A stretch of DNA of 64,000 nt, taken from assembly GCF_000378245.1 (NCBI RefSeq), contig NZ_KB899497.1, positions 248,001 to 312,000 of the forward strand, given 5' to 3'. Position 1 is the stretch's first letter; each line of letters opens with the position of its first letter. A program made the translations under genes and the position numbers. Below, piece after piece: positions 5,927 through 29,207 of the stretch. The notes below the pieces were generated by a model. The model worked only from the letters and a program-made list of their open reading frames with translations. It did no database searches and was not told the DNA's origin. The stretch is from Aromatoleum toluclasticum ATCC 700605. GTDB taxonomy: Bacteria; Pseudomonadota; Gammaproteobacteria; Burkholderiales; Rhodocyclaceae.

Positions 5927-5938
5927 GGGGCTGACGAC

Positions 5939-7714: not shown

Positions 7715-7729
7715 AGGAAAACGAGAGAG

Positions 7730-13714: not shown

Positions 13715-15149
13715 AGGGGATCTCGATGGTGAAGGTGGTGGATCCCGGTTCGCTTTCGACCGAGATTTCGCCGTTGAGCTGCTGCACGATCTGATACACG
13801 ATCCACAGGCCCAGACCGTGACCCGCCTCGTTGTGCGTGGTGAAGGGTTCGAACAGGTAGGGCAGTTCCTCGTGCGGAATGTGCAGGCCGTCGTTGAACA
13901 CCGCGAGCACGAGTCGGTCGTCGGTGGCCTGCGCACGCAGTCGCACCGTGCCGCCATTGCCGGCGGCGGCGACGGCGTTGAGCAGCAGGTTCAGCACGAT
14001 CTGCCGCACGAGCGTCGCGGGAAGGGGGAGGGCGGAGGCGAGATTGTCGTCTACGGCGACCGTTGCCCCGCGGATATGGGCCTCGGTTTCGACGAGGATC
14101 AGCAGGTCTTCGATGTCCTGGGGGGCGAACGGACGGTCTTCGATGCGGCTTTCCACCAGCAGCGCCGCGACGGTGTTGCGGATCTGCGTGAGGCCGCGTT
14201 CGAGCAGCGACAGGGCCTTGGCGGCGAGCGGATCGCCGTCGCCGTGGCGCTTGTAGGTGTTGATCGCGGTCAGCATGCCTGCGAGCGGGTTGTTGATCTC
14301 GTGCGCGATGCCCGCCGTAAGGCGGCCGATCGCGGCGAGGCGCTCCGAGACGAGCATCTGGCGCTCGAGTTCCTGCTTGTTGCGCAGCTCGCCGACCATG
14401 CGGCGGAAGGCTTCGCCCAGCTGGCCGATTTCGTCGCGGCTGTGCGGCAGGTCGGCGAGTCGCGCCGCTTCCAGCTCGAGCGGGACCTGGCGCATCGCCT
14501 GCGCCAGACGCATCAGCGGCTGGCCGGTTCTGCGCGCCCAGACCCACGAAATCGGCAGGATCACGACGAGGACCAGCAGGGTGACCAGCACGGCGCGCCC
14601 GACCAGGCCGAGGAAGCGCGGCAGGAACGGCGTCTTGGAATAGCCGAGAATGACGTGTCCGAGCGCGACGCCGTCGGCGATTAGTGGCGACATCACGAAA
14701 TAGACCGGCGAACCGGGGGGCTCGAGCACGCGCTGTTCGTTTTCGGCTCCGCGCGACAATTCGGCGCGCAGCAGGCCGTATGCGCCGCCGCGGCTGGCCG
14801 CGCTGCTGCCGATCGGAAACTCGCGCGGGCGGGTCGAGACGAACACGCGGTAGTCGGCATCGGTGACCAGCACCACCTCGGCCTGCAGCTCGGGGGCGGC
14901 GGGGTCGCGCTCGTGCGCCGACTGCAGGATTTCGTAGGCGCGCCAGATGTCGTCGTGCAGCACCGGCATCACCAGCGTGTGCGCGAGGACGCGCCCCATG
15001 CTGCGGGCGTGGCCTTCGAGGTTCTGCCGGATCTCGTCGTATTCCCGGGCGACGAGCGCTCCGGCGACTGCGACGGCGGTACCGAGCACGGCCGCCATCA
15101 CCCGCAGTGGAATCTTCCAGCGCAGCGACAGATCGGACAGGGGGCTCAC
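13671..15149 (-). CDS. membrane sensor histidine kinase (AioS/ArxS-like)
   Basis: The protein of about 492 residues begins with GTG at 15149, which overlaps the stop of the upstream binding-protein gene (GTGA). It has a first transmembrane helix (residues about 11-32), a periplasmic region of about 130 residues, and a second helix (VLVTLLVLVVILPISWVW). HAMP, a dimerisation domain with the phosphoacceptor His in GIAHEINNPLAGM, and an ATPase domain with GHGLGLWIVYQIV follow. It most likely senses the ligand-loaded PhnD-like protein and phosphorylates the adjacent regulator. A longer open frame upstream is not coding. Confidence 0.9.
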   Translation of the reverse strand: MSPLSDLSLRWKIPLRVMAAVLGTAVAVAGALVAREYDEIRQNLEGHARSMGRVLAHTLVMPVLHDDIWRAYEILQSAHERDPAAPELQAEVVLVTDADYRVFVSTRPREFPIGSSAASRGGAYGLLRAELSRGAENEQRVLEPPGSPVYFVMSPLIADGVALGHVILGYSKTPFLPRFLGLVGRAVLVTLLVLVVILPISWVWARRTGQPLMRLAQAMRQVPLELEAARLADLPHSRDEIGQLGEAFRRMVGELRNKQELERQMLVSERLAAIGRLTAGIAHEINNPLAGMLTAINTYKRHGDGDPLAAKALSLLERGLTQIRNTVAALLVESRIEDRPFAPQDIEDLLILVETEAHIRGATVAVDDNLASALPLPATLVRQIVLNLLLNAVAAAGNGGTVRLRAQATDDRLVLAVFNDGLHIPHEELPYLFEPFTTHNEAGHGLGLWIVYQIVQQLNGEISVESEPGSTTFTIEIPYGQAARSNAATLSD

Positions 15150-16024
15150 GAGCGCTCCATGCGTGCCGCCATGCGCGCAATGTCGGCAAACAGCGCAGGT
15201 TCTCCGCGCGTGAAGCCGTCGAGATGCAGACGCTTGAGCAGCTCTTCGCCCGCGGGGTCGGCCGCCATGCCGAGCAGCACGGCACGGAAGCGATCGAGTT
15301 CCTCGGGCGGGATGTCGGCCCGTGCGACGAAGGGCGGATGGCCGAGAAGCGGCGAGCGGTCGATGATGCGTGTCGCGCGGGTCAGCTCGGGGCGGACCTC
15401 GGCGAGCGTTTCCCACACATAGCCGTCCACCGCGCCGCCGTCGGCCAGTGTAGCCCCGACCGCCTCGACGACCTTGCGATGGGCCCAGGTGAAGAAGGTG
15501 CGCGAGAAGAAGTTCGCCGGATCCTGCTTGTGCGTGGTCAGGATGTAGCGCGGATACAGGTAGCCGGAATTGGAGTCCGGGTCGGAGTATGCGAAGACCT
15601 TGCCACGCAGGTCCGTGATTGCGTTGGAACGCGTGTCGTCGGCCGGCACGATGATGTAAGAGCGGTAATACGGACCACCCCGCCACAGGGGCACGGCCAC
15701 CAGTTTCAGTTCGCGCTGATGACGCACGTAGGGGTAGCCGCACACCCAGGCGAAATCGAGTTTGCCGGTGCGCACCAGATCGACGACTTCGCGGTAATTG
15801 CCGCGCTGGACGAAGGTCACCGCCCGACCGAGTTTCACCTCCAGCCAACGTCGCCAGTCGCGCAGGAAGTTCATCTGGTCGTCCAGGAACACCGGTGTCA
15901 GGCCGATCCTGACTGCGTCATCGGTGGCACCGGCCGACAGGGCTGGGAGCGCAGCGAGGGCCGCGGCGCAGCGAAGAAAGCGCCGTCGCGACTGCGATCC
16001 GAGACTGTCATTGCCCCTGTCCAT
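15146..16024 (-). CDS. PhnD-like periplasmic binding protein, putative oxyanion sensor (AioX-like)
   Basis: A 292-residue protein with a twin-arginine-like export signal (SRRRFLRCAAALAALPAL). The mature domain belongs to the phosphonate-binding (PhnD/TtrS/AioX) fold; recognisable parts are IGLTPVFLDDQ, the hinge segment KLDFAWVCGYPYV and GKVFAYSDPDSNSGYLYPRY. No ABC transporter genes are present; instead kinase and regulator genes overlap downstream, so a signalling role is likely. Cys95 in the VCGYPYV segment is a candidate ligand residue, since the arsenite sensor AioX depends on a cysteine. That equivalence was not verified by alignment. Confidence 0.85.
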   Translation of the reverse strand: MDRGNDSLGSQSRRRFLRCAAALAALPALSAGATDDAVRIGLTPVFLDDQMNFLRDWRRWLEVKLGRAVTFVQRGNYREVVDLVRTGKLDFAWVCGYPYVRHQRELKLVAVPLWRGGPYYRSYIIVPADDTRSNAITDLRGKVFAYSDPDSNSGYLYPRYILTTHKQDPANFFSRTFFTWAHRKVVEAVGATLADGGAVDGYVWETLAEVRPELTRATRIIDRSPLLGHPPFVARADIPPEELDRFRAVLLGMAADPAGEELLKRLHLDGFTRGEPALFADIARMAARMERS

Positions 16025-16088: not shown

Positions 16089-16148
16089 GTTACGCTGGCG
16101 TAGCATCTTGCGCCGCAGCAATCGGCACGGGTGTTACGCCGGCGTAAC
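16089..16148. promoter_or_regulatory. two upstream activator palindromes
   Basis: GTTACGCTGGCGTAGC at 16089-16104 and the perfect palindrome GTTACGCCGGCGTAAC at 16133-16148 share the same core. Their centres are 44 bp apart, about four helical turns. They lie 80-140 bp upstream of a sigma-54 promoter, the normal position for NtrC-family enhancers. They are the best candidate binding sites for the regulator encoded at 12359-13714. Confidence 0.8.
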
Positions 16149-16227: not shown

Positions 16228-16243
16228 TGGCGCGGATGTTGCG
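16228..16243 (+). promoter_or_regulatory. sigma-54 (-24/-12) promoter
   Basis: TGGCGCGGATGTTGCG matches the TGGCACG-N4-TTGCW consensus with the invariant GG-N10-GC spacing. It is about 110 bp ahead of the first gene of the molybdoenzyme operon (ATG 16354) and downstream of paired activator palindromes. It fits the NtrC-type regulator encoded by the divergent operon. Confidence 0.85.
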
Positions 16244-16353: not shown

Positions 16354-17064
16354 ATGAGCGAAGAACTCAGGGTCTCGCCCATCGAGACCAGGGAAATGCC
16401 GGGCAAGCGCCGCTTCGCCATGGTGGTCGATACGCGTCGCTGCATCGGCTGCATGGCCTGCCAGGTCGCCTGCAAGGCGGAGTACGACACGCCGCTCGGC
16501 GTAAACCGCACCTGGGTGCCGTACAAGGTCGTCGGCAAGTACCCCAACGTCAAGAAGCAGTTCCTGCCGCGGCTGTGCAACCACTGCGACGACCCTCCGT
16601 GCGTGCGCAACTGTCCGGTCGGAGCCACCTACAAGCACGAGGACGGGGGCTTCGTGTTGCAGCGCTATGAGCGGTGCATCGGCTGCCGCAGCTGCATGGC
16701 GGCCTGTCCGTACAACGCGCGCTTCATGCTGCCGTCGCACCGGACCTACACGCCGATCACGAATGTGGTCGACAAGTGCACCTTCTGCTTCCACCGCGTG
16801 ACGCAGAACCTGGTGCCGGCCTGCGTGCAGACCTGCATCGGACGTGCGCGGGTGTTCGGCGATCTCAACGACCCGACCAGCGAGGTTTCCTACCTCGTTG
16901 CGAAGAACGCGACGCAAGTGCTGCGCCCTGAGGAGGGGACCAAGCCGCATGTGTTCTACATCGGCGCGGATCGCAACCAGACCGAGTTCGGCCGCGATGC
17001 CTATCGCAAGCCCGAAGTGATGGAGCTCGAACGCTCGGCGTTCAAGCGCCACTTCGACATCTGA
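16354..17064 (+). CDS. four-cluster [4Fe-4S] electron-transfer subunit of a CISM molybdoenzyme
   Basis: A 236-residue polyferredoxin of the DmsB/PsrB/TtrB/NrfC type. Sixteen cysteines form four cluster motifs: residues 30-40 (CIGCMACQVAC), 75-87 (CNHCDDPPCVRNC), 108-118 (CIGCRSCMAAC) and 142-161. There is no signal peptide, so it is probably carried across the membrane with the Tat-exported catalytic subunit. Start ATG 16354 has the ribosome-binding site GAGGAGG. First gene of the operon; the membrane anchor follows 10 bp later. It should pass electrons between the NrfD-type anchor and the molybdenum subunit. Confidence 0.93.
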   Translation: MSEELRVSPIETREMPGKRRFAMVVDTRRCIGCMACQVACKAEYDTPLGVNRTWVPYKVVGKYPNVKKQFLPRLCNHCDDPPCVRNCPVGATYKHEDGGFVLQRYERCIGCRSCMAACPYNARFMLPSHRTYTPITNVVDKCTFCFHRVTQNLVPACVQTCIGRARVFGDLNDPTSEVSYLVAKNATQVLRPEEGTKPHVFYIGADRNQTEFGRDAYRKPEVMELERSAFKRHFDI

Positions 17065-17074
17065 GGAGACAACC

Positions 17075-17932
17075 ATGGGCGATTACGTCTGGTTCCACGA
17101 TGTGTCGTGGCACGCGACCTACGCGATCTACTTCTTCGTCATCGGCATTTGCGCGGGCCTGTCCTTCCTGTCGTACGGCTCGTGGCGCACCGAGGCGCTG
17201 CGATCACTGCGCGAGAAGGCGGCCTACGGTTCGTTCGCACTGCTGGTCGTGGGCGGCCTGCTGCTGATCGGCGATCTGTCGCAGCCGCTGCGCTTCCTCA
17301 ACGTCCTCAATCCCGCCTATCTCAACTTCACCTCGCCGCTGGCCTGGGGGGCGCTCAACATCCTCGCCTTCGGTATCGCGTCTGTCCTGTATCTGGTCGC
17401 ATTGAGGCAGGGGAACGAGGCGCGCGGCAAGCTGCTGGCGACCATCGCTGCGTTGCTGGCATTGGGGCTGCCGATCTATACCGGCTATGACCTGACCGTG
17501 CACCAGTCGCGGCCGGTGTGGAACACGCCGGTGATGCCGGTGCTGTTCGTCGCGCTGGCCGTCGCTTCGGGTTCCGCGGTGGGCGCCATCCTCGCCGGGG
17601 CGAACCAGGCGGCGCAGAAGCTGCTGCGCGAATACATGCTGTGGTCGACCGGCGCCGTGGGCGTGATCCTGATCTCGATTCTCGGCACGACCAGCTACGG
17701 CGGGGCGGCGCAGGAGCTGACTTTCATGATCATGACGACCGGGACGATGGGCCTGATCTTCGTCGGCATCGGCATCGTCGCCGGCACCGCTGCGCCGATC
17801 GCGCTGTTGCTCGCGCCCTTCGGTCGCCAGCAGATGGGGGCCGTGCTGGCCGGCGTGCTCGTCCTCGCCGGTGGTGCCGCGCTGCGCTATGCGCTGCTGA
17901 TGGGGCCCCAGCAATTGCAGACCCTGTACTGA
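17075..17932 (+). CDS. NrfD/PsrC-type membrane anchor subunit
   Basis: A 285-residue integral membrane protein with about eight hydrophobic helices. Typical NrfD features are present: GICAGLSFLSYGSW in the first part, QPLRFLNVLNPAYLNFTSP and the YTGYDLTVHQSRPVWNTPVM region. These proteins exchange electrons with the quinone pool and hold the Fe-S and molybdenum subunits at the periplasmic face. The gene is between the Fe-S subunit (10 bp) and the catalytic subunit (24 bp), giving the order B-C-A known from ttrBCA and srdBCA. Confidence 0.93.
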   Translation: MGDYVWFHDVSWHATYAIYFFVIGICAGLSFLSYGSWRTEALRSLREKAAYGSFALLVVGGLLLIGDLSQPLRFLNVLNPAYLNFTSPLAWGALNILAFGIASVLYLVALRQGNEARGKLLATIAALLALGLPIYTGYDLTVHQSRPVWNTPVMPVLFVALAVASGSAVGAILAGANQAAQKLLREYMLWSTGAVGVILISILGTTSYGGAAQELTFMIMTTGTMGLIFVGIGIVAGTAAPIALLLAPFGRQQMGAVLAGVLVLAGGAALRYALLMGPQQLQTLY

Positions 17933-17956
17933 GCGGACCGGCAAGGAGATCACGTC

Positions 17957-20596
17957 ATGGAATTCCCGAAAATCACACGCCGTACTTTCCTCAAGGTCAG
18001 CGCCGGCACCACCGCGGCAGCGGCCACCGCACCGCGCTTGCTGCACGCGATGGAGAACGAGCTCGGTGGCAAGGATTTCGATCCGGTGAACGCCGCCGAG
18101 CGCAAGGCCATCCCCATCAACTGCCACGTCTGCAACATCCAGGACGGGGCCATCGCCTACGTCGAGAACGACCGGGTGGTGAAGCTCGAAGGCAATCCGG
18201 AACACGTGTCCACCCGCGGCCGGCTGTGCGCCAAGGGTAACTCGGGCATGTGGTACAGCTACGACCCCGACCGCATCCTGTATCCGCTGCGGCGGGTCGG
18301 CGCGCGCGGCGAAGGCAAGTGGAAGCGCATCACGTGGGACGAGGCGCTGGCCGAAGTCGCGGAGAAACTCGACGCCGCGCTGAAGGAGGATCCCAACACG
18401 ATCATGATGAAGTACGGGCGCAACCGTACCGGCGGCACGCTCGATCGCTTCATGCAGACGTTGGGCTCGGCCACGGTGGTGAATCACACCTCGGTGTGCG
18501 AATCCTCGAAGAAGGTCGGCATGGAGCCGACCTGGGGGCCGGACATCGAGACGCCCGACTTCGCGAACGCGAAGTACGTGCTCAACTTCGGCTCGAACGT
18601 GCTGGAGGCCGCGTACTTCCACAACCCCTTGTCGCAGCGCGTGACCGAAGGGCGAATCGACAACCAGATGAAGATCGTCACCTTCGACGTGCGGCTGTCG
18701 AACACGGCAGGTTTCTCGGACGAGTGGATTCCGGTGTTCCCGGCGACCGACGGTGCGGTGGCGCTGGCGATCGGCCACGTCATCCTGCGTGAGGACCTGC
18801 AGGACAGCGATTTCATCAACACCTGGACCAACGTCACGGTCGATGAGCTGAAGGCGCATTACGCGCAATACACGCCGGAATGGGCGTCGAAGATCTCGGG
18901 TGTGCCGGTCGAGACCATCGAGCGCATCGCGCGCGAGTTCGCGACGACCAAGCCCGCGACGCTGTTCACCTATCGCGGTCCGGCCAAGCACCTGTACGGC
19001 TCGTACAACGAGAAGGCGTGCATGATGCTGCCGATCATGACCGGCAACGTCGAGAAGCGTGGCGGCTACTGCCTGCCGCGTGGCATGGGCTGGCCGCAAC
19101 CGGAGCCGCAGCCCGGCAAGCCGGCGAAGGCTTCCTACCTGTCGCGTCCGCCCGACTATCCGCTCGCCGCGCACAAGGTCAGTCACCTGGTGCCGTTCTG
19201 GATCGCCGAAGGGAAGCAGAAGATCAACGTCTACTTCACCTACCAGGACAACGCGGTCTATACGAACCCGGGATCGACGGCGGTGTGGGGCAAGCTCTAC
19301 AAGGACGAAAAGCTGATTCCCTTCCTCGTCTCGATGAGTCCCTTCATGGGAGAGGAAACGGCGCTGGCGGACCTGATCCTGCCCGACTGCCCCTATCTCG
19401 AGCGCTGGGAACCGGAATCGATGCCGAACTCGCTGTGGCCGTGGCTCGGCATCCGTCAGCCGGTGCACAAGTCGCTGGGCGAATCGCGCGAGAACCGCGT
19501 GTTGCTGCGCGACATCATCTGGAAGCTCGACCCCGACGGCTCGCGTGGCATGAAGAAGTTCTGGGACTTCAAGGACGGCGAGGACTACATGCGCCATCAC
19601 TTCGACAACGTGCCCGGGCTCAAGGAGGCCGGCGGTCTCGACTTCCTGAAGAAGCACGGCGTGTGGCCGATCTACGGCAAGCTCGACCCGCGTACCGGCA
19701 AGGTCACCGACAAGACCGGTCGCGAGATCCAGGCCGAATACGGGCTGTTCCGCAAGGAGTTGTCCGTCGCCGACATGGAAGGAACGGTGGTCGATGCCCA
19801 CGGGCTCATCAACAAGAACGGCAAGGCCATCGGCATTCGCCGCAACGGCAAGAACTACGTCGGCTTCCCGACGGGCAATCGCCTGATCAACGTGCGGGTT
19901 GATGAATGGGCCGAGTACGGCTTCAACCCGATGCCGACCTTCAAGCGCATCCCGTGGCATGAGGCGATGCAGGACGACGAGATGATCCTGTCGACCTTCA
20001 AGCTCAACGTGCACAAGCAGTCGCGCACCGCCGCGGTGAAGTGGCTGGCCGAGATCGCGCACAGCAATCCGGCATGGATGAACCCGGAAACGGCGAAGAA
20101 GCTGGGCGTAAAGACCGGCGACCTGGTGCGCATCGAAAGTGCGGTCGGCTACCTCGTGACCAAGGCCTACGTCACCGAGGGCATCCACCCGAAGGTGGTG
20201 TCGATCCCGACCGGATTCGGTCACTGGGAATACGGCCGGCTGGCGACGCTCAGGCTCAAGGACCGCAAAGGCGACGCGAGCCATGGTGCCGACGACCCCG
20301 ACCTCGACAACGTGTGGTGGGACGACAAGGGGGTGCATCCCAACAACATCATCCCGGTGGTCGCCGACCCGATCGGCGGTTCGCAGGGCTGGTTCGACAC
20401 CGTTGTGAAGGTGACGAAGGCGGGGCCCAACGACAAGTACGGTGATACCCAGGGAGACTGGGACAAGCACGTGGCGGCCTTCAAGGAGACCATGCGCTAC
20501 GCCTACACCGGCGACCTGCACCGCAAGATGCATCCGGAGATGGCGTCCTGGGGCGGGCCGGAGAGCGTCAAGGGCAAGGCCCCGGGCGGTCATTGA
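17957..20596 (+). CDS. Tat-exported molybdopterin catalytic subunit (CISM/DMSO-reductase family) with Asp in the Fe-S motif
   Basis: An 879-residue molybdo-bis(MGD) enzyme. The N-terminus carries a twin-arginine signal (TRRTFLKVSAGTTAAAA). The [4Fe-4S] motif reads C56-x2-C59-x3-D63-x27-C91, so the third cysteine is replaced by Asp. The Mo ligand is predicted to be Cys181 in NHTSVCESSKK, placing it among the cysteine-ligated reductases (PsrA, TtrA and ArrA/ArxA relatives). The MoPterin-binding C-terminal domain begins near residue 660 (LNVHKQSRTAAV). The divergent AioXSR-like regulators suggest an oxyanion substrate. ArxA, TtrA, SrdA or phenylacetyl-CoA oxidoreductase-like activities cannot be told apart from sequence reading alone. 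Confidence 0.9.
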   Translation: MEFPKITRRTFLKVSAGTTAAAATAPRLLHAMENELGGKDFDPVNAAERKAIPINCHVCNIQDGAIAYVENDRVVKLEGNPEHVSTRGRLCAKGNSGMWYSYDPDRILYPLRRVGARGEGKWKRITWDEALAEVAEKLDAALKEDPNTIMMKYGRNRTGGTLDRFMQTLGSATVVNHTSVCESSKKVGMEPTWGPDIETPDFANAKYVLNFGSNVLEAAYFHNPLSQRVTEGRIDNQMKIVTFDVRLSNTAGFSDEWIPVFPATDGAVALAIGHVILREDLQDSDFINTWTNVTVDELKAHYAQYTPEWASKISGVPVETIERIAREFATTKPATLFTYRGPAKHLYGSYNEKACMMLPIMTGNVEKRGGYCLPRGMGWPQPEPQPGKPAKASYLSRPPDYPLAAHKVSHLVPFWIAEGKQKINVYFTYQDNAVYTNPGSTAVWGKLYKDEKLIPFLVSMSPFMGEETALADLILPDCPYLERWEPESMPNSLWPWLGIRQPVHKSLGESRENRVLLRDIIWKLDPDGSRGMKKFWDFKDGEDYMRHHFDNVPGLKEAGGLDFLKKHGVWPIYGKLDPRTGKVTDKTGREIQAEYGLFRKELSVADMEGTVVDAHGLINKNGKAIGIRRNGKNYVGFPTGNRLINVRVDEWAEYGFNPMPTFKRIPWHEAMQDDEMILSTFKLNVHKQSRTAAVKWLAEIAHSNPAWMNPETAKKLGVKTGDLVRIESAVGYLVTKAYVTEGIHPKVVSIPTGFGHWEYGRLATLRLKDRKGDASHGADDPDLDNVWWDDKGVHPNNIIPVVADPIGGSQGWFDTVVKVTKAGPNDKYGDTQGDWDKHVAAFKETMRYAYTGDLHRKMHPEMASWGGPESVKGKAPGGH

Positions 20597-20670
20597 CGTG
20601 TCGGCGGCCAGCCTGTTGAAAGGGAAATCCGGCCCGCGGACGACGCGGGCCGGGGGATAGCGGAGGCCCT

Positions 20671-21516
20671 ATGCTGAAGACCATGTTTGCCCTCGACGAA
20701 GAGCCGCACCCGAGTGCTCCACCTCAGCCCATGCAGTCGCCGGAGCAACTGCGAAGCGAGTGCGTTGCGCGAACGGGTGTCTATCGGCTTCTGTCCGCGG
20801 CCTTCATCGAGGAGCCCGGTCGGGAATTCCTCGCCGCGCTGCGACAGCCCGACGCGCTGGCGTCCCTCGCCGAGGCCGGCCTCGCCTTCGATGACGATTT
20901 CGCTGCGAGCGACCTGGACGCACTGGTAGATCGCCTGTCGTGCGAATACACCACGTTGTTCGCAGCGTCAGGCGGCTTTCCGCCGGTCGAATCGGTACGC
21001 CTGACCGGCCGCTACAAGCAGGAGCCGCATTTCCAGGTCGGCCAGATCTACGCACGCTGCGGTTTTGTGCTGGGCAGGGGGCGTTTCGAGATCTTTCCCG
21101 ATCAGCTCGGCGCCGAACTGATGTTCGTCGCGGAACTGCTGGAGCGCAGCGTGCAGGCGCTCGACGCCGCTGAAACGGCCGAATTCGCGCGTCTGGAACG
21201 CGAGATCAAGCGCTTCTGGACGCTGCATTTGGGACGTTGGGTGCGCGGCTACGGGCGCCTGCTCGAACGGGCGGCCGAGCATTCCTTCTATCGCGAGATG
21301 GGGCGTTTTCTGAGCGGCTTCGCCGACGAGGAGATCGCTGCGATGCGCCTGCGCATCGAGGATCTCGACCAGGCCCGCGTGGTCGTGCCGAAACGCGAAA
21401 TCCGGGTCGAGTTCAATCCGGATGAGCCGGTGTGCAATGGCTGCGGGCCGGACCCGGGCGCGGAAGCCGGCACTCGCCCGGTCGCGACGGTTCATCCCCT
21501 GCACGATCTGCGTTGA
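20671..21516 (+). CDS. TorD/NarJ-family molybdoenzyme assembly chaperone
   Basis: The 281-residue all-helical protein has a TorD-like core: RTGVYRLLSAAFIEEPG near residue 35, LSCEYTTLFAASGGFPPVES near 90, and ELMFVAELLERSVQA near 150. A C-terminal extension of some 50 residues contains CNGC (VCNGCGPDPG). Such chaperones bind the Tat signal and insert the cofactor before export. It directly follows the catalytic gene, consistent with dedicated service to that enzyme. The cysteine-containing tail is unusual for the family and may bind a metal. Confidence 0.85.
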   Translation: MLKTMFALDEEPHPSAPPQPMQSPEQLRSECVARTGVYRLLSAAFIEEPGREFLAALRQPDALASLAEAGLAFDDDFAASDLDALVDRLSCEYTTLFAASGGFPPVESVRLTGRYKQEPHFQVGQIYARCGFVLGRGRFEIFPDQLGAELMFVAELLERSVQALDAAETAEFARLEREIKRFWTLHLGRWVRGYGRLLERAAEHSFYREMGRFLSGFADEEIAAMRLRIEDLDQARVVVPKREIRVEFNPDEPVCNGCGPDPGAEAGTRPVATVHPLHDLR

Positions 21517-21535
21517 GCGCACCGGAGACGCCATC

Positions 21536-21985
21536 ATGCTGCTCGACCTGCAATCCCGCCCCATCCTGCCGCCGGATCGTCAGGTGCTGTCGGAACTCGA
21601 CTGGAGCGAAATCGCCGCGCTGTGGAACGGCAACGAGCTGAGCGCGCTGCACGACCTGCTCAACGAGCGCTGGTCGCGGCTGATCCGCAACAGCGTGCTC
21701 GGTACCGCCGACCCCGAAGCGGAGTTCCTGCAGGGGTTGGCTTTTGCGGCGCTGGCATTGTTCTTCACCCAGCACCGCAACCAGGAAGGCGCGCTGATCC
21801 TGCTCGACGACGCAGTGTTTGCCTTGGGCAAGTACCGGCCGCGTTTTCTCGGCGTGCAGGTCGAGCCGATCGTCGGCTGCCTGCAGGAGATGCGCCCGCT
21901 GATCGCGTCGCTGCCGGCTGACGGCGAGAACCCGTCCTTCCCCTTCGTGTACGCGAAGTTCGAGTACGACCGGGCGGCGCCATGA
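21536..21985 (+). CDS. DUF309-like helical protein
   Basis: This 149-residue protein is predicted to be mostly alpha-helical. The central part (EFLQGLAFAALALFFTQHR then GALILLDDAVFALGKYRP) resembles the DUF309 family, whose function is unknown. The overall resemblance was judged by eye. Its start is 19 bp after the chaperone stop, and its end overlaps the next gene by four bases, so it belongs to the operon. A role in maturation or regulation of the molybdoenzyme is inferred only from position. Confidence 0.7.
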   Translation: MLLDLQSRPILPPDRQVLSELDWSEIAALWNGNELSALHDLLNERWSRLIRNSVLGTADPEAEFLQGLAFAALALFFTQHRNQEGALILLDDAVFALGKYRPRFLGVQVEPIVGCLQEMRPLIASLPADGENPSFPFVYAKFEYDRAAP

Positions 21986-22677
21986 ACGTGCAATGGCACT
22001 GCCTCGCCGAGTGCAGCGACGTTCCTCCCGAAGTCGATCCGGCGGACGTCTTCGCCTTCGATGGCGAGGGGGGCGATGGCGAGCGCGGCGCGGTGGCGGG
22101 CGTCGTGCTGCGCACGGAAGGCGAGGCGCGCGCCCAGGCCTTGCTCGTGGCGGGTGCTGCCACGGTGTTCATCGGGGAGGCCGCCCTGCGCGACAGCGCG
22201 ATGGTCGAACGGCTCGCCGCGAAGTTCGGTGCCGGGCGCATCGGACTGTATGTGCCGGCACGGCGGATGGAGATCGGCTGGTCCTTCGACACCACTTCGA
22301 ACGCCGACTTCAGGGTCGTGACCCCCTCGCAGTGCGAGCCCTGCTGGGAGATCCTGCGCGCCGACGGCTCCCGCAGCGGCGTAAGGATGCACTGGTGGCT
22401 GGGCGAGATGATGAAGCGCGGCGCCGCGGCGGCCCTCGTGCAGGTCGACATCCGCGACGACACCGACCTCAACCTGTGCGCCGGGCTCGTGGAGGACTTC
22501 GGCGAGCGTATCTGGCTCGGGCCGCTCGACGACCGCGACCCGGCGTTTGGCGACTGGACGACCTACGGCCGGATCGAGCGGATTGCGCTGGCACCGACGC
22601 TGTTCGCACGCCGGGATAGCCTGCTGCCGGCCGCGGCACCGGAGTGCGAAGTCGCCGCGAGCGGGGAGCCGGCATGA
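21982..22677 (+). CDS. HisA/HisF-like barrel protein of unknown function
   Basis: A 231-residue protein resembling the phosphoribosyl isomerase HisA barrel. The segment AATVFIGEAALRDSAMVERL mirrors the HisA phosphate-binding and helix region, and AAALVQVDIRDDTDLNLCAG mirrors its second catalytic strand (TDIDRDGT in HisA). The catalytic aspartates are only partly kept, and no histidine genes are nearby, so histidine synthesis is unlikely. ATGA overlaps couple it to both neighbours. What it binds is unknown; a sugar-phosphate or cofactor precursor is possible. Confidence 0.65.
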   Translation: MNVQWHCLAECSDVPPEVDPADVFAFDGEGGDGERGAVAGVVLRTEGEARAQALLVAGAATVFIGEAALRDSAMVERLAAKFGAGRIGLYVPARRMEIGWSFDTTSNADFRVVTPSQCEPCWEILRADGSRSGVRMHWWLGEMMKRGAAAALVQVDIRDDTDLNLCAGLVEDFGERIWLGPLDDRDPAFGDWTTYGRIERIALAPTLFARRDSLLPAAAPECEVAASGEPA

Positions 22678-23144
22678 CGCGTGCAGCCGGACGGTTCGTG
22701 CGTGTGTTGTGCGTGATCGCCGCGTTTGGCGTGGCGCCCGCGTGTCATGCCAGCGCATCGCTCAGGAACGAAACGCAACTGCAGTTCGCCCTGAGGTCGA
22801 GTCCGCCGTGCTGCGTCATCGACGGACGTGCGGAGGCGCAACGGAAGGCCCATGCCTTGCCCGATGCGCTGGTCTACCGCAAGGATCTCAAGATCAATCC
22901 GGTGGCGACGGTGGTCGTCGTCGCGGACAGCGATGCACAGGCGCTCGCCATCGCCGAAGCGCTTGCCAGCGCGCATCCCGGCAAGACCGTGCTGGCGGTC
23001 GAAGGCGGCGTCGCGGCATGGGAGGCGGTCGTGCGCGCACTCGCCGCCGATCCGCCCGGCGGGCGGGCGCTCGACTTCGTCATCCCGAGCAACACCTGCG
23101 AGCACGGCGCGCCCTTGCAGCAGTTGCGGACGAGCCCGAAATGA
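22674..23144 (+). CDS. exported rhodanese-like protein lacking the catalytic cysteine
   Basis: The 156-residue protein has a signal peptide ending near ACHASA. The rest follows the rhodanese fold: CCVIDGRAEAQRKAHALPDA at the first strand and ACT-like GVAAWEAVVRAL at the end. The active-site loop, normally CxxGxR, reads ADSDAQA, so the sulfur-transfer cysteine is missing. A vicinal Cys-Cys (strand 1) and a lone C-terminal Cys (NTCEHG) remain. It probably acts in the periplasm as a binding or structural partner of the molybdoenzyme. Start and stop both overlap neighbours. Confidence 0.65.
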   Translation: MTRAAGRFVRVLCVIAAFGVAPACHASASLRNETQLQFALRSSPPCCVIDGRAEAQRKAHALPDALVYRKDLKINPVATVVVVADSDAQALAIAEALASAHPGKTVLAVEGGVAAWEAVVRALAADPPGGRALDFVIPSNTCEHGAPLQQLRTSPK

Positions 23145-24250
23145 GCCTCGCCTATCCGCAATTCCGTTCCAGCCGGTGCACCCGCTACCGCTATCGCTAC
23201 AGCGAATGCAGCCGCTGTGCGGATGCCTGTCCGCACGAGGCGATCACACTGTCCGACGAAGGTGCGGCGCTCGACTCCACCCGCTGCCAGAACTGCGCGC
23301 TGTGCGTCAGCGCGTGCCGCACCGGGGCGTGGGAGAGCGAGGCCTTCAAGCCGATCGAACTGTTGCGGCAGGCGATCAAGCAGGAGACGTTCTCCTTCGC
23401 GTGCGCGCCCTCGGGTCTGTCGGCCGATGCGGTCGTGCCCTGCCTCGGCGCGATCGACGCGGCGACGCTGGCCTATCTCGCCAAACGCCGGATTCCCGTC
23501 AGCCTGCATGGCACCGCCCATTGCGCGGATTGTGCGCATGCCCCGCGCGGGGCAGCGCAACTGGCGCTCGATCTGGACGCCTGTGCGGTCCTGAGCGTGG
23601 CGGCGGAGCCTGCGGAGCGCGGACCTTGGCTCGCCCCGATGCTCGCCGACGATCCCGCGGCCACGGCGCCGGGCGGGAAGGGCGGATTCGCCCCCTCGCG
23701 CCGGCAGCTTTTTCGTCGCCTGCTAGGCCGCGGCATGGACGAGATCGCGAGTGCTGCCGAGCCCGTCGACGCCGCACCGCCGGTGCCGGACAAGGCCATC
23801 CGCGCCGGCGCCTATGCGCTGCCCGAGCAGCGGGAACTACTGCAGATCGTGTGCACGCGCGGTGACGAGCGCCCGTTCGAAGTGCCGATGCACGAAGGGC
23901 TTCCGCTGATGGCGCTGGTGCTGCACCCCGGCTGCACCGTCTGCGAAGCCTGCTTCCGTGCCTGCCCGACCGGCGCCATCCAGATCGAGGAGAGCCCCGC
24001 GGACTGGCAACTCAAGTTCGATGCCGACCGCTGCGTCGCGTGCGAGGTCTGCGTCGAAGTCTGCCAGCCACGCGTGCTCGACGCCGCACCGGTATTCGAT
24101 GCGCGGCCCGAACAGCCGGCCCGCGTGCTGCACGCCCTGGCGAAGCAGCGCTGTGCGCGTTGCGACCGTCATTTCGTCTCCGCCAGGCCTGAAGAAACCT
24201 GTCCGATCTGCCGCGACGACGAAGACGCGTTCGCGGCGATCTTCGGCTGA
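23141..24250 (+). CDS. multi-cluster ferredoxin with zinc-ribbon-like tail
   Basis: A 369-residue soluble protein. Two N-terminal ferredoxin motifs (Cys23/26/30 with Cys13 as possible fourth ligand, and CQNCALCVSAC at 49-59) are followed by a cysteine-bearing middle domain (ACAPSG, VPCLG, HCADC). Two more ferredoxin motifs follow (CTVCEACFRACP, CVACEVCVEVCQ), and a final CARCD...CPICRDD zinc-ribbon pair. The middle domain vaguely recalls MvhD-type subunits. It could be a cytoplasmic electron donor or assembly factor for the molybdoenzyme. Coupled to the upstream gene by an ATGA overlap. Confidence 0.8.
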   Translation: MSLAYPQFRSSRCTRYRYRYSECSRCADACPHEAITLSDEGAALDSTRCQNCALCVSACRTGAWESEAFKPIELLRQAIKQETFSFACAPSGLSADAVVPCLGAIDAATLAYLAKRRIPVSLHGTAHCADCAHAPRGAAQLALDLDACAVLSVAAEPAERGPWLAPMLADDPAATAPGGKGGFAPSRRQLFRRLLGRGMDEIASAAEPVDAAPPVPDKAIRAGAYALPEQRELLQIVCTRGDERPFEVPMHEGLPLMALVLHPGCTVCEACFRACPTGAIQIEESPADWQLKFDADRCVACEVCVEVCQPRVLDAAPVFDARPEQPARVLHALAKQRCARCDRHFVSARPEETCPICRDDEDAFAAIFG

Positions 24251-24272
24251 TCGCCGCGAGGAGAACACGATC

Positions 24273-24665
24273 ATGGAATGGGAATTCACCGCCGAACAAG
24301 TCGTGAAGGGTGACGTCGATTACGGCCTCGAGCAATTCAGGCGCGACCTTGGCGAGGAAGTGCGCATGAACATGGCGTCGGCCGACGAGCTGCAGCAACA
24401 GTGCGCGTACAAGCTCATCTACGACATGTGCTACGCGCTGGCGACCGATCGCAAACTCGATGACGTCCTTGCGACCTATGCCTATGACCCGCCGACCTGC
24501 CAGTTCCTGCGCGAGGTCGAGCCGCTGATGAGCGGCAACGTCGGGATGCTCGGTGCAATCCTCCAGCGCATGATCATGGATGGGGTGGAGGCGGGCATGT
24601 CGCTCGAGCGCGCGATCGACGAGGCTGCCGCGCGACATCAGGTGGCGGTTGACGTCGCTGCCTGA
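24273..24665 (+). CDS. conserved hypothetical protein, last gene of the molybdoenzyme operon
   Basis: A 130-residue soluble, acidic, mainly helical protein that I do not recognise. It has two cysteines in its middle (QQQCAYKLIYDMCYALA) and one in PPTCQFL. A good ribosome-binding site (GAGGAGAA) precedes the ATG at 24273, 22 bp after the ferredoxin gene. Operon position suggests a role with the molybdoenzyme; no function can be assigned. Confidence 0.75.
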   Translation: MEWEFTAEQVVKGDVDYGLEQFRRDLGEEVRMNMASADELQQQCAYKLIYDMCYALATDRKLDDVLATYAYDPPTCQFLREVEPLMSGNVGMLGAILQRMIMDGVEAGMSLERAIDEAAARHQVAVDVAA

Positions 24666-24864: not shown

Positions 24865-26334
24865 ATGGACTCGTCTTCATCGTGGATCCTGCCCGTCTTC
24901 TACGGCGGGCTCGGCAACCTCGCGGCCTATCTCGCGGCACACGTGCTGTTGTGCCTGCTGCCGGCCTTCTTCATCGCCGGCGCGATGGCAGCGCTGATTC
25001 CCAAGGAAACCGTCACGCGCTTCCTCGGGCGCAATTCCAGCAAGGCGGTGTCCTATCCGGCCGCCGCAGCCGCGGGATCCCTGCTGGCGGTATGTTCGTG
25101 CACCATCGTCCCGCTCTTCGCCGGCATCTACAAGAAAGGCGCCGGGCTGGGGCCGGCGATCACCTTCCTGTTCTTCGCGCCGGCAGCGAACATCCTCGCG
25201 CTCGTCTATACGGGCGGCATCATCGGGCCGGATCTCGCCATTGCGCGGTTCCTGCTGTCGCTGACCTTCGGCATCGGCATAGGCCTGATCATGGCGCTGA
25301 TCTTCCGCGCCGACGACGCCGCGCACGACCTCGCGACCGACAGCCCCTTCGCCGCGCAGGGCGAGGGTATGGGCCGGGCGCCGCTGTTCTTCCTCTTCGT
25401 GTGGGTGGCGCTGTTGCTCGCCGGCACGCTCAAGCTCGGCGTGCTGACTGGCACCTATATGGATTTCGAGCTGCCGCTCGCCGATGCGCAAACCTGGCAG
25501 GGCGCGCTCGATCATCTTGTGCCCTACGACGCGGCGAAAGGCGAGGAGGGGGTGTCGCTGCAGGGCGCGGGGCTGATCGCCCTGCTCGCGGTGATCGGTT
25601 TCAGCGCGTGGCGCGGGCTCGAGAACATCCAGGACGGCGCGAACGCATGGACGTGGACGAGCCTTGCGACGATCGCTCTCACGCTGCTCGTCGCCGCGCT
25701 GTCGGTGCAGGCGGCGCCGGAAGGGCTGCGGATCGGCCTGACCGGCAAGTTCTTCGGGGTCGCGGTCGCCCTGGCTGGGGTCGGGCTGATCGCACGCGCG
25801 CACCTCTCGCCGGACGAACTGCGCGACTGGCTGTGGGAGTCGTGGCGCTTCGTGAAGCAGATATTCCCGCTGCTCGTGATCGGCGTCTTCATCGTCGGCA
25901 TGATCCGCGTGGTGATCCGGCCCGAATGGATCGAGATGCTCGCGGGTACCAACTCCGCGATCGGCAACCTCGCGGGCGTGGCGTTCGGCGTGTTCATGTA
26001 CTTCCCGACGCTGGTCGAAGTGCCGATCGCGAAAATGTTCCTCGATCTCGGCATGCACCGCGGGCCGCTGCTCGCCTACCTGATGTCCGATCCCGAACTC
26101 TCGCTGCAAAGCATCCTGATCATTGCGGCGATCATCGGCCGGCGCAAGACGGCGACCTACGTCGGGCTCGTGGCGCTGTTCAGTGCCGTCGCCGGCTTCG
26201 CCTACGGCGCGTGGGTCGACGGCGTGTCGCTGTTGCGGCTCGCGCTATGGCTGGGCGCCTTCATCGGCGTGCTGGCCGCGCTGCTGTCTGTCGCCAGCCG
26301 ACGCGCCGCATCCTCCCTTGTGAAAGGAGTCTGA
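24865..26334 (+). CDS. DUF318-family (YraQ/ArsP-like) membrane permease
   Basis: A protein of about 489 residues with roughly ten hydrophobic helices. The family core VCSCTIVPLFAGIYKKGAGL and FFAPAANILALVYTGGI is clear, and a second half repeats the FMYFPTLVEVPIAKMFLDLG pattern. ATG 24865 has AAGGAG at 24853-24858; a longer frame upstream (to 24700) lacks similarity. The family includes ArsP, which exports organic arsenicals, but most members have no known substrate. A thioredoxin-like gene follows 2 bp later, a common pairing. Confidence 0.85.
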   Translation: MDSSSSWILPVFYGGLGNLAAYLAAHVLLCLLPAFFIAGAMAALIPKETVTRFLGRNSSKAVSYPAAAAAGSLLAVCSCTIVPLFAGIYKKGAGLGPAITFLFFAPAANILALVYTGGIIGPDLAIARFLLSLTFGIGIGLIMALIFRADDAAHDLATDSPFAAQGEGMGRAPLFFLFVWVALLLAGTLKLGVLTGTYMDFELPLADAQTWQGALDHLVPYDAAKGEEGVSLQGAGLIALLAVIGFSAWRGLENIQDGANAWTWTSLATIALTLLVAALSVQAAPEGLRIGLTGKFFGVAVALAGVGLIARAHLSPDELRDWLWESWRFVKQIFPLLVIGVFIVGMIRVVIRPEWIEMLAGTNSAIGNLAGVAFGVFMYFPTLVEVPIAKMFLDLGMHRGPLLAYLMSDPELSLQSILIIAAIIGRRKTATYVGLVALFSAVAGFAYGAWVDGVSLLRLALWLGAFIGVLAALLSVASRRAASSLVKGV

Positions 26335-26336: not shown

Positions 26337-26582
26337 ATGGTGAACATCAAGGTTCTCGGTCCCGGTTGCGCGAACTGCCGCAAGCTCGAGGAAGTCGCAC
26401 GCGAGGCGGTCGCGTCGCTGGGGGTGCAGGCGGAGATCAACAAGGTCACGGACATGAACGAGATCATCGCCTACGACGTCCTGAAGACGCCCGGGCTGGT
26501 GATCAACGGGAAGCTCGTGTCGTCCGGACGCATTCCGACGCCCGCAACCGTTGCGGAGTGGGTGCGGGCGGCAATGTCCTGA
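26337..26582 (+). CDS. small thioredoxin-fold protein (redox-active disulfide protein)
   Basis: An 81-residue thioredoxin-fold protein with the active-site motif GPGCANCRKLEE (CxxC) and the cis-Pro segment TPGLVINGKLV. It follows the permease gene by 2 bp, with the ribosome-binding site GAAAGGAG inside the permease 3' end. Such small disulfide proteins usually accompany DUF318 permeases; a joint role in handling thiol-reactive metals is inferred. Confidence 0.9.
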   Translation: MVNIKVLGPGCANCRKLEEVAREAVASLGVQAEINKVTDMNEIIAYDVLKTPGLVINGKLVSSGRIPTPATVAEWVRAAMS

Positions 26583-26596: not shown

Positions 26597-29041
26597 TCAG
26601 CGGGCCGGGGGCGTCGTGCGACGCAGCCGCAGTGCGTTCGTGACCACCGACACCGAGCTGGCGCTCATCGCCAGCGCGGCCACCATCGGCGACAGCAGCA
26701 GGCCGGTGAAGGGGTACAGCAGGCCGGCCGCAAGCGGCACGCCGAGCGCGTTGTAGACGAAGGCGAAGGCGAGGTTCTGGTGCATGTTGCGCACCGTCTC
26801 GACCGAGATGCGGCGCGCGGCGGCGATGCCGCGCAGGTCGCCCTTGACCAGTGTGAGCTGCGCGCTGGACATCGCGACGTCGGTGCCGGTGCCCATCGCC
26901 ACGCCCACGTCCGCGCGCGCGAGCGCGGGCGCATCGTTGATGCCGTCGCCCGCCATCGCCACCACGCGTCCTTCGCGTTGCAGCCGGGCGACCAGATCGT
27001 CCTTGTCCTTCGGCTTGACCTCGCCGAGCACTTCCGCGATGCCCAGCCGCGTGCCGACGGCGCGCGCGGTCGTCAGTCCGTCGCCCGTCGCCATGACGAT
27101 GCGGTCGATGCCGTGCGCGCGCAGCTCCGCCAGGGCCTCGGGTGTCGTTGCCTTGACTGGGTCGGCGACGGCGACCAGCCCCGCGGCGACGCCGTCGATG
27201 GCGAGCATCATCACGCTCGCGCCTTCCAGACGCAGGGCTTCCGCCTGGCCTGCGAGCGCGTGCCAATCGACGCCTTCTTCGTCCATCAGCGCGGTGTTGC
27301 CGAGCACCACCTTGCGTCCGTCGACCGTGCCGCGCACGCCGATGCCCGACGACGATTCGAAACTGTCCGGCTTGGACAGCGTCAGCCCGCGGCCCCGTGC
27401 CTCGCCTACGATCGCGTGGGCCAGGGGGTGTTCGCTGCCCTGATCGAGGCTCGCGGCGAGGCGCAGCACCTCGTCGGCCTCCCAGCCGGGGGCGGCGATG
27501 GCGGTGTGGTACGCGGGGTGCCCTTCGGTGAGCGTGCCGGTCTTGTCGACGATCAGGGTGTCGACGCGGCGCAGGTTTTCGATCGCCGCGGCGTCGCGGA
27601 ACAGCACGCCCTGCGTTGCGGCATTGCCGGTCGCGACCATTACGGACATCGGCGTCGCGAGCCCGAGCGCGCACGGGCAGGCGATGATCAGCACCGCGAC
27701 CGCGTTGATGAGGCCATAGGCCCAGGAGGGGGAGGGGCCGAAGAGGCCCCAGCCGAGGAAGGTCAGCGCCGCGATCGCGACGACCACGACGACGAACCAG
27801 CCCGCGACGCGGTCGGCCATGCGCTGCATCGGCGCGCGCGAACGCTGCGCCTGCGCGACCATCTGCACGATCTGCGCGAGCACGGTCTGCGAACCGATCT
27901 TCTCCGCCTGCATCACCAGCGCGCCGCTGGTATTGAGCGTCGCGCCGATCACCTTGTCGCCGGCAGTCTTGGATACCGGCATCGGCTCGCCGGTGAGCAT
28001 CGATTCGTCCACGGCGCTGGCGCCTTCGAGCACGACGCCATCCACCGGCACCTTCTCGCCCGGGCGCACGCGCAGGCGGTCGCCCGGATGCACGTGGGTC
28101 AGGGGGACGTCTTCCTCGCTGCCGTCGGCGTTGATGCGCCGTGCGGTCTTGGGCGCGAGGCCGAGCAACGCCTTGATTGCCGCGCCCGTCTCCGCGCGGG
28201 CGCGCAGTTCCAGCACCTGACCGAGCAGGGTCAGCGAGACGATCACCGCGGCGGCTTCGAAATACACGGCGACGTGCCCGCCAATGCGGAAGGAGTCGGG
28301 AAAGACGCCCGGTGCGACGGTCGCGACGACGCTGTAGCCGTAGGCGGCACCCACGCCGGTACCGATCAGCGTCCACATGTTGGGGCTGCGATTCGTAATA
28401 GATTGCGCCCAGCGCACGAAGAACGGCCATCCGCCCCACAGCACGACGGGCGTCGCGAGCAGCAGCTCGATCCAGGGGCGGGCGCCGCCGAGCAGCGGAT
28501 CGATGATCCGGCCCGACATCGCGATCGCGGTGACGAGGATGGTCGCGGGCAAGGGCCACCAGAAGCGGCGGCGGAAGTCGGCCAGCTCCGGATTTTCGCC
28601 CCCCTCGAGTTCAGGCAGCACCGGTTCCAGCGCCATGCCGCACTTCGGGCAGGTGCCTGGGCCGGGCTGGCGGATCTCGGGGTGCATCGGGCAGGTGTAT
28701 TCGGCGGCGGTCGGCGCTTCCGGGGATGAGGGAGCCTGCGTCGCGGGTTGCAGGTAGCGCTGCGGTTCCGCGTTGAACTTGGCAAGGCACTTCGCGCTGC
28801 AGAAGTGGTACTCGTGGCCGGCGAAGGTGGTGTGGTGGGGTGAATCGGGCTTCACGCTCATGCCGCACACCGGGTCCGTAAACGCGGCCGAGTCCTGCGG
28901 GGCCGCGGGTGAGGGGCGGGTGTGCGCGTGTTCGTGCGTGGGTTCGTGGTGCGCGGCATGTCCTTCATGCCCATGGTGTCCGTCGCCGTGACTTTCATGG
29001 TCGTGATGGACATGTGCGCGCATGGAGCCGTCCTCAGTCAT
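26597..29041 (-). CDS. copA: copper-exporting P1B-type ATPase
   Basis: A protein of about 814 residues. The N-terminus has a His-rich segment, then a YHS domain (DPVCGMSV...[10 protein letters not shown]) and a heavy-metal-binding domain ([10 protein letters not shown]...[10 protein letters not shown]). The ATPase core has CPC in helix 6 ([11 protein letters not shown]), [13 protein letters not shown] and [14 protein letters not shown] identifies a Cu(I)/Ag(I) pump. No HMA CxxC domain is present, as in CopF-like enzymes. ATG 29041 follows AAGGGGGG and overlaps the 57-residue ORF upstream. Confidence 0.93.
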
Positions 29042-29207
29042 GGTCGCCCCCCTTGCCGCGCGGACGACGGGCCGCGTAGATCGCCGACGGCGAGCTGCAA
29101 CAGCCGTCGGGCTTGGCATTGCGGTGCGCGCGCTCGTTCTCCGCCATCCATGCGCGCAGGCGCTGCAGCAGGGTTTTCAGGGATTCGAGCATCGCGCGTT
29201 TCTCCAT
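29034..29207 (-). CDS. 57-residue small protein, upstream of and overlapping copA
   Basis: The predicted peptide starts [20 protein letters not shown] and ends with a Lys/Arg-rich tail ([11 protein letters not shown]). It contains an amphipathic helix and a vicinal Cys-Cys ([10 protein letters not shown]) that could bind copper. Its stop overlaps the copA start codon region, indicating translational coupling. I know of no named family for it. Confidence 0.65.

Follow-up and report, generated by a model that had tools for sequence, protein, structure and literature searches.

Which substrate does the molybdoenzyme operon at positions 16354-24665 of this 64,000-nucleotide stretch of Aromatoleum toluclasticum ATCC 700605 (contig NZ_KB899497.1, positions 248,001 to 312,000; the whole stretch is called the window here) serve, and is its enzyme a new one? 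The initial annotation saw a complex iron-sulfur molybdoenzyme (CISM) operon of nine genes, in which a standard B-C-A core and a TorD chaperone precede five unusual accessory genes, and allowed for a new respiratory enzyme or a new maturation route. All nine genes are open and intact at that place, and both the separate standing of the catalytic subunit and the unusual gene set hold up. The unit is bigger than was thought, however, as a divergent X-S-R sensor module, an ars operon and an ArsP permease with a thioredoxin-like protein had been missed. Because an AioX-family sensor and an arsenic island accompany the operon, the likely oxyanion narrows to arsenic or antimony. The operon probably encodes a periplasmic, quinone-linked oxidoreductase of a trivalent metalloid (arsenite and/or antimonite), equipped with maturation genes of its own, a reading to which we give a probability of roughly 0.58. 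The operon and its divergent regulatory module are made up as follows.

12359-13714, reverse strand: R, sigma-54-dependent response regulator, predicted start (PF00072, PF00158, PF02954)
13671-15149, reverse strand: S, sensor histidine kinase, predicted start (PF00672, PF00512, PF02518)
15146-16024, reverse strand: X, AioX-family periplasmic (phosphonate-type) binding protein, predicted arsenite-type sensor (AioX structure 6esv)
16089-16104, no strand: imperfect copy of the palindrome below, GTTACGCTGGCGTAGC, from the sequence
16133-16148, no strand: palindrome GTTACG-N4-CGTAAC, predicted as a probable R-binding site
16228-16242, forward strand: sigma-54 (-24/-12) promoter element TGGC-N7-TTGC
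16354-17064, forward strand: B, multi-cluster iron-sulfur electron-transfer subunit (PF13247; best NCBIfam match TtrB, 219 bits, cut-off 416)
17075-17932, forward strand: C, NrfD/PsrC-type membrane subunit (PF03916, E 4e-32; best NCBIfam match TtrC)
17957-20596, forward strand: A, catalytic subunit with molybdenum-bis(molybdopterin guanine dinucleotide) cofactor and a twin-arginine (Tat) signal (PF00384, PF01568, PF04879, PF10518)
20671-21516, forward strand: D, TorD/NarJ-family maturation chaperone (PF02613, E 1e-15)
21536-21985, forward strand: DUF309-like protein (PF03745, E 8e-5, below cut-off; conservation, n=61)
21982-22677, forward strand: HisF/HisA-fold barrel (PF00977, E 1e-4, below cut-off)
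22674-23144, forward strand: exported rhodanese-like protein (PF00581, E 0.011, weak; conservation, n=57)
23141-24250, forward strand: ArxB2-like polyferredoxin with zinc-ribbon-like cysteines at the C terminus (PF00037, E 2e-16)
24273-24665, forward strand: orphan helical protein (no Pfam or NCBIfam match in the 120-residue part scanned)

A search for this gene neighborhood across genomes recovered the set in 64 named loci, with A 74-92% identical; the scan of named-species genomes, which demanded a match to either of two exact peptide patterns and retained the best 80 of 191 relatives, gave 79 loci. Because the gene order recurs in dozens of genomes, the operon is not a chance assembly. All six genes after A are present in 45 of 49 loci with at least 4.8 kb after A; the orphan is missing in L081, L095 and L103, and the rhodanese-like gene in L112. 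X is found in 51 of 53 loci with at least 4 kb before A, the exceptions being L079 and L085. Judged by record title, the hosts range over Aromatoleum, Thauera, Hydrogenophaga, Rhodoferax, Polaromonas, Sulfuritalea, Thiobacillus, Sulfuricella, Gallionella, Sideroxydans, Herbaspirillum, Hydrogenophilus and Thiohalomonas, among others, and many are metagenome-assembled genomes (MAGs); L078, L096 and L102 are apparently the same genomes as L018, L024 and L020. The HisF-like protein has matches in nine of 250 genomes of the order, eight of them credible, including that of the window, and one weak (31%, two stops). The operon is complete in six of the seven other credible loci; the seventh sits on a contig of 3.3 kb that breaks off within TorD. 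The corresponding profile matched two of 398 Pseudomonadota genomes, both carriers. In 17 loci of more distant relatives (A ~38-59%; some on short contigs), no DUF309, HisF, rhodanese or orphan gene could be found, although X, S or R is kept in nine of them. A second divergent X-S-R / B-C-A-TorD operon lies elsewhere in the same genome (G000:C4, ~92-101 kb; L211, 9192-18087), with A 39%, B 55% and X 48% identical to those of the window; the same four genes were not found within the 19.9 kb read there.

The X-S-R module (12359-16024) lies directly upstream of B on the opposite strand. Among solved structures, X matches AioX best (6esv, 210 bits), ahead of ArrX (135) and the phosphite-binding PtxB (51). 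In the AioX study by Badilla et al. (PMC5908839), the arsenite pocket consists of Tyr88, Cys106, Tyr131, Ser161, Ser163, His192 and Asp210, with Val56, Phe57 and Leu58 shutting over arsenite. X of the window keeps ten of ten: Y88, C106, Y131, S161, S163, H192 and D210, and the loop V56, F57 and L58. All seven pocket residues can be read in 61 of 63 operon X proteins, the window's included, and V56 with F/I57 in 62 of 63. The two exceptions are L052, from a MAG (X at 561-1454, reverse strand), which has an in-frame deletion over the C106 region, and L087, which stops at a contig edge. In the X tree, most operon X proteins cluster next to ArxX, the fork there being moderately supported, and 12, mainly from Comamonadaceae, join the AioX beside aioBA of Hydrogenophaga sp. 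BPS33 (support 100/100); the first X tree drew a program warning of long branches. Since those 12 group with the BPS33 AioX, two kinds of arsenite-type sensor accompany the same enzyme. Among eight opened plasmid records with X homologs besides that of Azoarcus sp. KH32C (of 30), six have aio neighbors (NT-26, Agrobacterium, Caballeronia, Paracoccus, Rhodobacter and Hydrogenophaga), one lies beside arx (Sulfuricella) and one has no annotation there (Aeromonas).

The region between X and B carries promoter elements that recur among the carriers. Of 58 intergenic regions, 37 have TGGC-N7-TTGC ahead of B (200 shuffles gave a mean of 0.27 and a maximum of 2; reverse strand 3 of 58), the core having been picked after inspection of the window, with shuffles and the reverse strand as controls; a strict sigma-54 pattern was matched in only 7 of the 58. 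The palindrome, likewise picked after inspection, is present as GTTNCG-N4-CGNAAC in 24 of 58 regions (shuffled mean 0.01) and was not found in the seven aio/arx promoters tried; 16133-16148 is probably the site at which R binds. The best matches of R beside the operon are 54-78% identical in most carriers and 43-48% in the Comamonadaceae type.

The operon is also linked to known arsenic genes. Among the 45 named carrier loci that span 15 kb or more, 10 have core ars genes, versus 0 of 37 other 20-kb windows, taken at round coordinates from 10 carrier genomes (Fisher p 0.0017), and a looser count that includes the ArsP permease gives 18 of 71 for carriers and 0 of 17 for controls. In Azoarcus sp. 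KH32C, plasmid pAZKH has arsR-C-D-A-acr3 and one small hypothetical gene ahead of X-S-R and the operon (A 96.6%), four of whose accessory genes are annotated there only as hypothetical protein. Searches for ArxA, AioA, ArrA and MenD covered 51 genomes, namely the window's own and those of 50 of the 64 named carrier loci; the loci outside them are mainly on short contigs, and many of the genomes are MAGs, in which an absence is weak evidence. ArxA homologs are present in seven of the 51, AioA in one, which also has ArxA, and ArrA-like genes (942-1041 bits) in seven. At the thresholds used, none of the three was found in 37 of the 51, the window's own genome included. ArxA lies within ~20 kb of the operon in G020, G150, G182, G459, G472 and G473, and an ArrA-like gene does so in G437, G448 and G449; the ArxA proteins of G020, G150 and G182 are 61, 62 and 91% identical to Sulfuricella ArxA. 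That the operon is an accessory to arx was rejected, 44 of the 51 carriers having no ArxA match.

Other molybdenum enzymes were seen in the same surveys. ArrA-like genes of ~1000 bits (cut-off 1600) occur at L205, L206 and L191-L197, with divergent X-S-R modules at L205 and L206. Another, uncharacterized enzyme, ~860 amino acids long and in a clade of its own, lies near the operon at L131 (11973-16423), L132 (2928-7462), L199 (7726-16391), L200 and L201 (8063-16344). It has its own divergent ArxX-like X-S-R module in L199, L200 and L201, and in L131 a flavocytochrome-like protein (by eye) and a tandem TusA follow it.

The catalytic subunit itself belongs to none of the families compared. In two trees A forms its own clade, away from the ArxA/ArrA-like rows, the TtrA-like rows and the other Phs/Psr-like rows; this clade is nested in a larger one that also holds relatives across many phyla and a second A-type enzyme encoded in the same genome. 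The tight clustering with a characterized enzyme that would have spoken against novelty is thus not seen, with reference rows that are mostly homologs and do not include SrdA. The Phs/Psr and Ttr rows are homologs, not characterized enzymes (no PhsA or TtrA over the cut-off came from the reference searches); the ArrA-like rows, at 942-1041 bits, stay under the ArrA cut-off of 1600; and the ArxA reference is the Sulfuricella pSCD cluster, called arx in PMC6549141 and in RefSeq only molybdopterin-dependent oxidoreductase. Placing A in a joint ArxA/ArrA-like clade costs 107.6 log-likelihood units and is rejected by the approximately unbiased (AU) test (p-AU 4.8e-93). Individual families were rejected as well: A scores 180 bits against the ArrA equivalog (NF041714, cut-off 1600), 39 against AioA (TIGR02693, cut-off 359; no Rieske match among the operon's nine proteins) and 135 against TtrA (cut-off 1750; TtrA-like rows separate in the tree). 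PhsA is the best NCBIfam match of A, but at 343 bits against a cut-off of 694. Two PadI (phenylglyoxylate dehydrogenase beta) genes over the cut-off lie in the same genome (G000:C7:25005-26330 and G000:C17:49281-50597), each no more than ~10 kb from a molybdenum enzyme. The molybdenum proteins nearest these loci are 25% (578 residues) and 23-27% (278-376 residues) identical to A, and a PadBCD-type enzyme was rejected on the 23-27% identity.

What A has in common with the ArxA and ArrA-like rows is found in its active-site motifs. Its molybdenum ligand is Cys181, a position taken from alignment, within GR...NHTSVCESSKK, and the GR, His and Cys of this segment are common to A, the ArrA-like rows (GRYS...SHSAICAEAEK) and the ArxA rows (GRGW...GHSSMC). 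The motif GHWxxGR is present in every row of A (14 of 14), every ArxA row (5 of 5) and every ArrA-like row (6 of 6), and in 6 of 15 more distant relatives; it is found in 0 of 2 TtrA-like rows, 0 of 5 third-type rows and 5 of 29 rows labeled Phs/Psr, and the trees place each of these five either with ArxA or within A's wider clade. A is 32% identical to Sulfuricella ArxA, 29% to an ArrA-like row and 30% to the TtrA-like protein of the same genome. Taken together, the sensor, the promoter, the gene linkage and the motif in the active site indicate an oxyanion of arsenic or antimony.

The accessory genes are unusual in four cases out of five. The DUF309-like, HisF-like, rhodanese-like and orphan families are those absent from the 17 distant loci; the ferredoxin is less unusual than had been claimed, since its counterpart next to ArxA in G020 is 27% identical to it (E 2e-21), and a ferredoxin and a TorD are ordinary for arx-like operons. 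Co-translation had been read from ATGA junctions: such overlaps occur at 21982, 22674 and 23141, three of the five accessory junctions, the others being gaps of 19 bases (TorD to DUF309-like) and 22 bases (ferredoxin to orphan), and the overlaps suggest translational coupling but are no demonstration of co-translation. A structure model of the barrel protein (21982-22677; predicted local distance difference test score, pLDDT, 86) matches HisF 1ka9 in Foldseek at E 2e-9 and a template-modeling (TM) score of 0.60, which gives it the HisF fold. Because the putative Asp130 position is Pro in the profile alignment on which this assignment is based, isomerase/cyclase chemistry would be unlikely; the N-terminal strand in which Asp11 would sit is too variable for alignment. 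The rhodanese-like protein, which had been described as without its catalytic cysteine, is not cysteine-free, since across its family (n=57) Cys142, which stands in an F-x-I-P-x-x-T-C motif, never varies and a CC pair is mostly retained. The orphan is modeled as all-helical (pLDDT 94), with no fold match in the PDB (best E 1.3). In relatives, moaA lies nearby in 19 of the 69 loci whose flanking clusters were examined, and a few have tandem tusA together with moaA or moaD; tandem TusA was seen in L022, L024, L082, L103 and, weakly, L094. In two of these the TusA tandem protein stands between the ferredoxin and orphan genes (L022, 5670-7907, with moaA and moaD; L024, 13797-14426). These neighbors would fit molybdenum-cofactor and sulfur supply and maturation.

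Observed gene content, conservation, linkage, an AioX-type pocket, promoter elements and a separate clade of A are the ground from which we infer the substrate, which way the electrons flow and what each accessory protein does. In the mechanism we propose, X would bind the metalloid in the periplasm and signal through S and R, and R, on the GTTACG-N4-CGTAAC palindrome, would activate the sigma-54 promoter ahead of B. A, periplasmic and membrane-anchored, would take electrons from arsenite and/or antimonite and pass them by way of B and the NrfD-type C to the quinone pool. TorD, the DUF309-like and HisF-like proteins, the ArxB2-like ferredoxin and the orphan would take part in cytoplasmic maturation of A, and the exported rhodanese-like protein would act in the periplasm. 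In some relatives, the nearby moaA, moaD and tandem tusA could provide extra molybdenum cofactor and its sulfur.

Among alternatives, the one that survives best, though we think it unlikely, is that electrons run the other way, the enzyme being a pentavalent-metalloid (antimonate or arsenate) reductase fed by quinol and a relative of the reported antimonate reductase AnrA. The anr cluster is reported to have an X-S-R and B-C-A-D layout resembling that of the operon, and relatives of A at ~50-56% identity occur in MAGs of SAR324, Deltaproteobacteria and Bacillota, some with X and S genes. Carrier genera, however, are largely known as aerobes or denitrifiers, and MenD is over the cut-off in 14 of 51 carriers and below it or missing in 37. 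Because so few have MenD, most carriers may rely on ubiquinone, which would favor oxidation of arsenite, whose couple lies at 60 mV according to PMC10100899; the pattern is a hint. A sulfur-bearing metalloid such as monothioarsenate, its sulfane sulfur passing to the rhodanese-like and TusA proteins, is an improbable substrate. The rhodanese-like gene is present in 48 of 49 loci with enough downstream DNA, tandem TusA accompanies the five loci named above, several hosts bear the names of sulfur oxidizers, and A matches PhsA best in NCBIfam; against this, TusA was not found in most loci in view, MoaA/MoaD beside TusA in L022 points to cofactor synthesis, and X has the AioX pocket. At similarly long odds, an oxidoreductase of sulfur compounds (of the polysulfide, thiosulfate or sulfite type) that came under the control of an arsenic-responsive regulator would accord with PsrA of Thermus as the solved structure nearest A (2vpw, 195 bits, then ArrA at 168), but A is separate from those Phs/Psr rows that lie outside its wider clade, shares GHWxxGR with the ArxA and ArrA-like rows, and is recurrently linked to ars, arx and arr.

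Several points also weigh against metalloid oxidation as the function of the operon. The case is built on gene content and sequence comparison. No core ars gene is in view in 35 of the 45 long named loci. Divergent X-S-R modules stand beside ArrA-like genes in G433 and G448 too, and for that reason an AioX-family sensor does not fix the direction of the reaction. Six of the seven carriers with ArrA-like genes are without MenD over the cut-off, which weakens the quinone argument. The ligand of the sensor and the substrate of the enzyme need not match, and according to PMC5908839 AioX, ArxX and ArrX did not bind antimonite. The rhodanese-like, TusA and MoaA neighbors would fit a sulfur substrate too, as would, at 343 bits, the PhsA match of A. 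Finally, one review has Hydrogenophaga taeniospiralis IDSBO-1 oxidizing Sb(III) with nitrate only, along a different pathway from that for arsenite (PMC8453088), and another paper calls the strain incapable of nitrate-linked Sb(III) oxidation (PMC11521347), a conflict that also counts on this side.

The presence of the operon in this species, with its debated nitrate-linked Sb(III) oxidation, is nonetheless a lead: the carrier is H. taeniospiralis CCUG 15921/NBRC 102512 (L059), a strain other than IDSBO-1, and its genome gave no AioA match at E 1e-100. In a bolder and decidedly tentative version of metalloid oxidation, which we find somewhat doubtful, Aio, Arx and Arr would be joined by A as a fourth family of molybdoenzymes for arsenite/antimonite respiration. 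This family would have a maturation apparatus of its own (pseudo-HisF barrel, DUF309 protein and orphan helical protein), would be spread among denitrifying, iron-oxidizing and sulfur-oxidizing Proteobacteria, and would include the missing nitrate-linked antimonite oxidase of H. taeniospiralis and its kin.

The remaining features of the window lie on both sides of the operon. Some gene starts in the ars operon (4689-8824) are predicted, and identities given for its genes are to the counterparts on Azoarcus sp. KH32C pAZKH.

4689-5060, forward strand: arsR (60% identical)
5057-5536, forward strand: arsC (73% identical)
5567-5926, forward strand: arsD (79% identical)
5939-7714, forward strand: arsA (84% identical)
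7730-8824, forward strand: acr3 (93% identical)
8899-10434, reverse strand: methyl-accepting chemotaxis protein (PF00015, PF00672)
10444-11286, reverse strand: PstS-like periplasmic binding protein (PF12849, E 3e-32)
11956-12279, reverse strand: C-terminal remnant of a TorD-family chaperone (PF02613)
24865-26334, forward strand: ArsP_1-family permease, predicted start (PF03773, E 1e-64)
26337-26582, forward strand: MTH895/ArsE-family thioredoxin-like protein, predicted start (TIGR00412, 98 bits, cut-off 62)

The TorD remnant is 49-59% identical over 104-105 residues to three arr-linked TorD proteins and 25% identical to the TorD of the operon, and is possibly the relic of a lost arr operon. 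A copper-type P-type ATPase, identified by eye from its translation (26597-29119, reverse strand), adjoins the ArsP/thioredoxin pair. No Rfam match was found in 11-30 kb of the window.

When arsenic and antimony cycling is surveyed, the genes counted are usually aioA, arxA and arrA. Such surveys would miss these carriers, because 37 of 51 genomes had none of the three at the thresholds used and do have an arsenite-type sensor with a matching enzyme. The operon is a widespread, unnamed gene set that probably serves respiration of a toxic metalloid (such as arsenite or antimonite) by an apparently undescribed route, and its accessory genes offer four unstudied families for the maturation of such enzymes. 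The combination had been proposed as undescribed, and no description of it was found in the open literature searched, a scope that leaves most subscription papers outside.

The operon resembles Arx, the anaerobic arsenite oxidase, in its parts. Like arxXSR / arxB2ABCD of Azoarcus sp. CIB and Sulfuricella pSCD, as given in PMC6683785 and PMC6549141, it has a divergent X-S-R module with a sigma-54 regulator, Fe-S and NrfD-type subunits, a TorD-like chaperone, a ferredoxin, a Cys-ligand molybdenum subunit and betaproteobacterial hosts. It differs in its order (B-C-A-D versus B2-A-B-C-D), its four extra accessory genes, a catalytic subunit 32% identical to Sulfuricella ArxA and excluded from the joint ArxA/ArrA-like clade by the AU test, and V56/S163 in X versus A56/T163 in the three ArxX proteins read. 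The nitrate-dependent Sb(III) oxidase NaoABC of Symbiobacteriaceae is likewise a proposed nitrate-linked metalloid oxidation by an enzyme of the dimethyl sulfoxide reductase family, but NaoA groups with NapA and NaoC has a Rieske domain, according to PMC11521347. With Arr the operon has in common the molybdenum-ligand GR, His and Cys, the GHWxYGR motif and, in some Arr, X-S-R; A is only 29% identical to an ArrA-like row, and the B-C-A operon here has an NrfD subunit. Aio has the AioX-type sensor, and X of 12 operons groups with an AioX, whereas the AioA score of A is only 39 bits and the operon is without a Rieske small subunit. PsrABC/PhsABC and TtrBCA are alike in subunit types, TtrB and TtrC being the best NCBIfam matches of B and C, but A falls in another clade and is 30% identical to the TtrA-like protein of the same genome. 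The B-C-A layout is also that of ttr and srd. PadBCD (phenylacetyl-CoA oxidoreductase) is a molybdenum/Fe-S membrane enzyme of related denitrifiers, from which A is set apart by 23-27% identity to the molybdenum proteins near the PadI loci of its own genome. The reported antimonate reductase AnrA of Geobacter sp. SVR is said to have an X-S-R-B-C-A-D layout and may be akin to the operon in that respect. Subject to this possible kinship, the operon is rated here as a CISM operon of arsenotrophic type whose catalytic clade and accessory set are both new.

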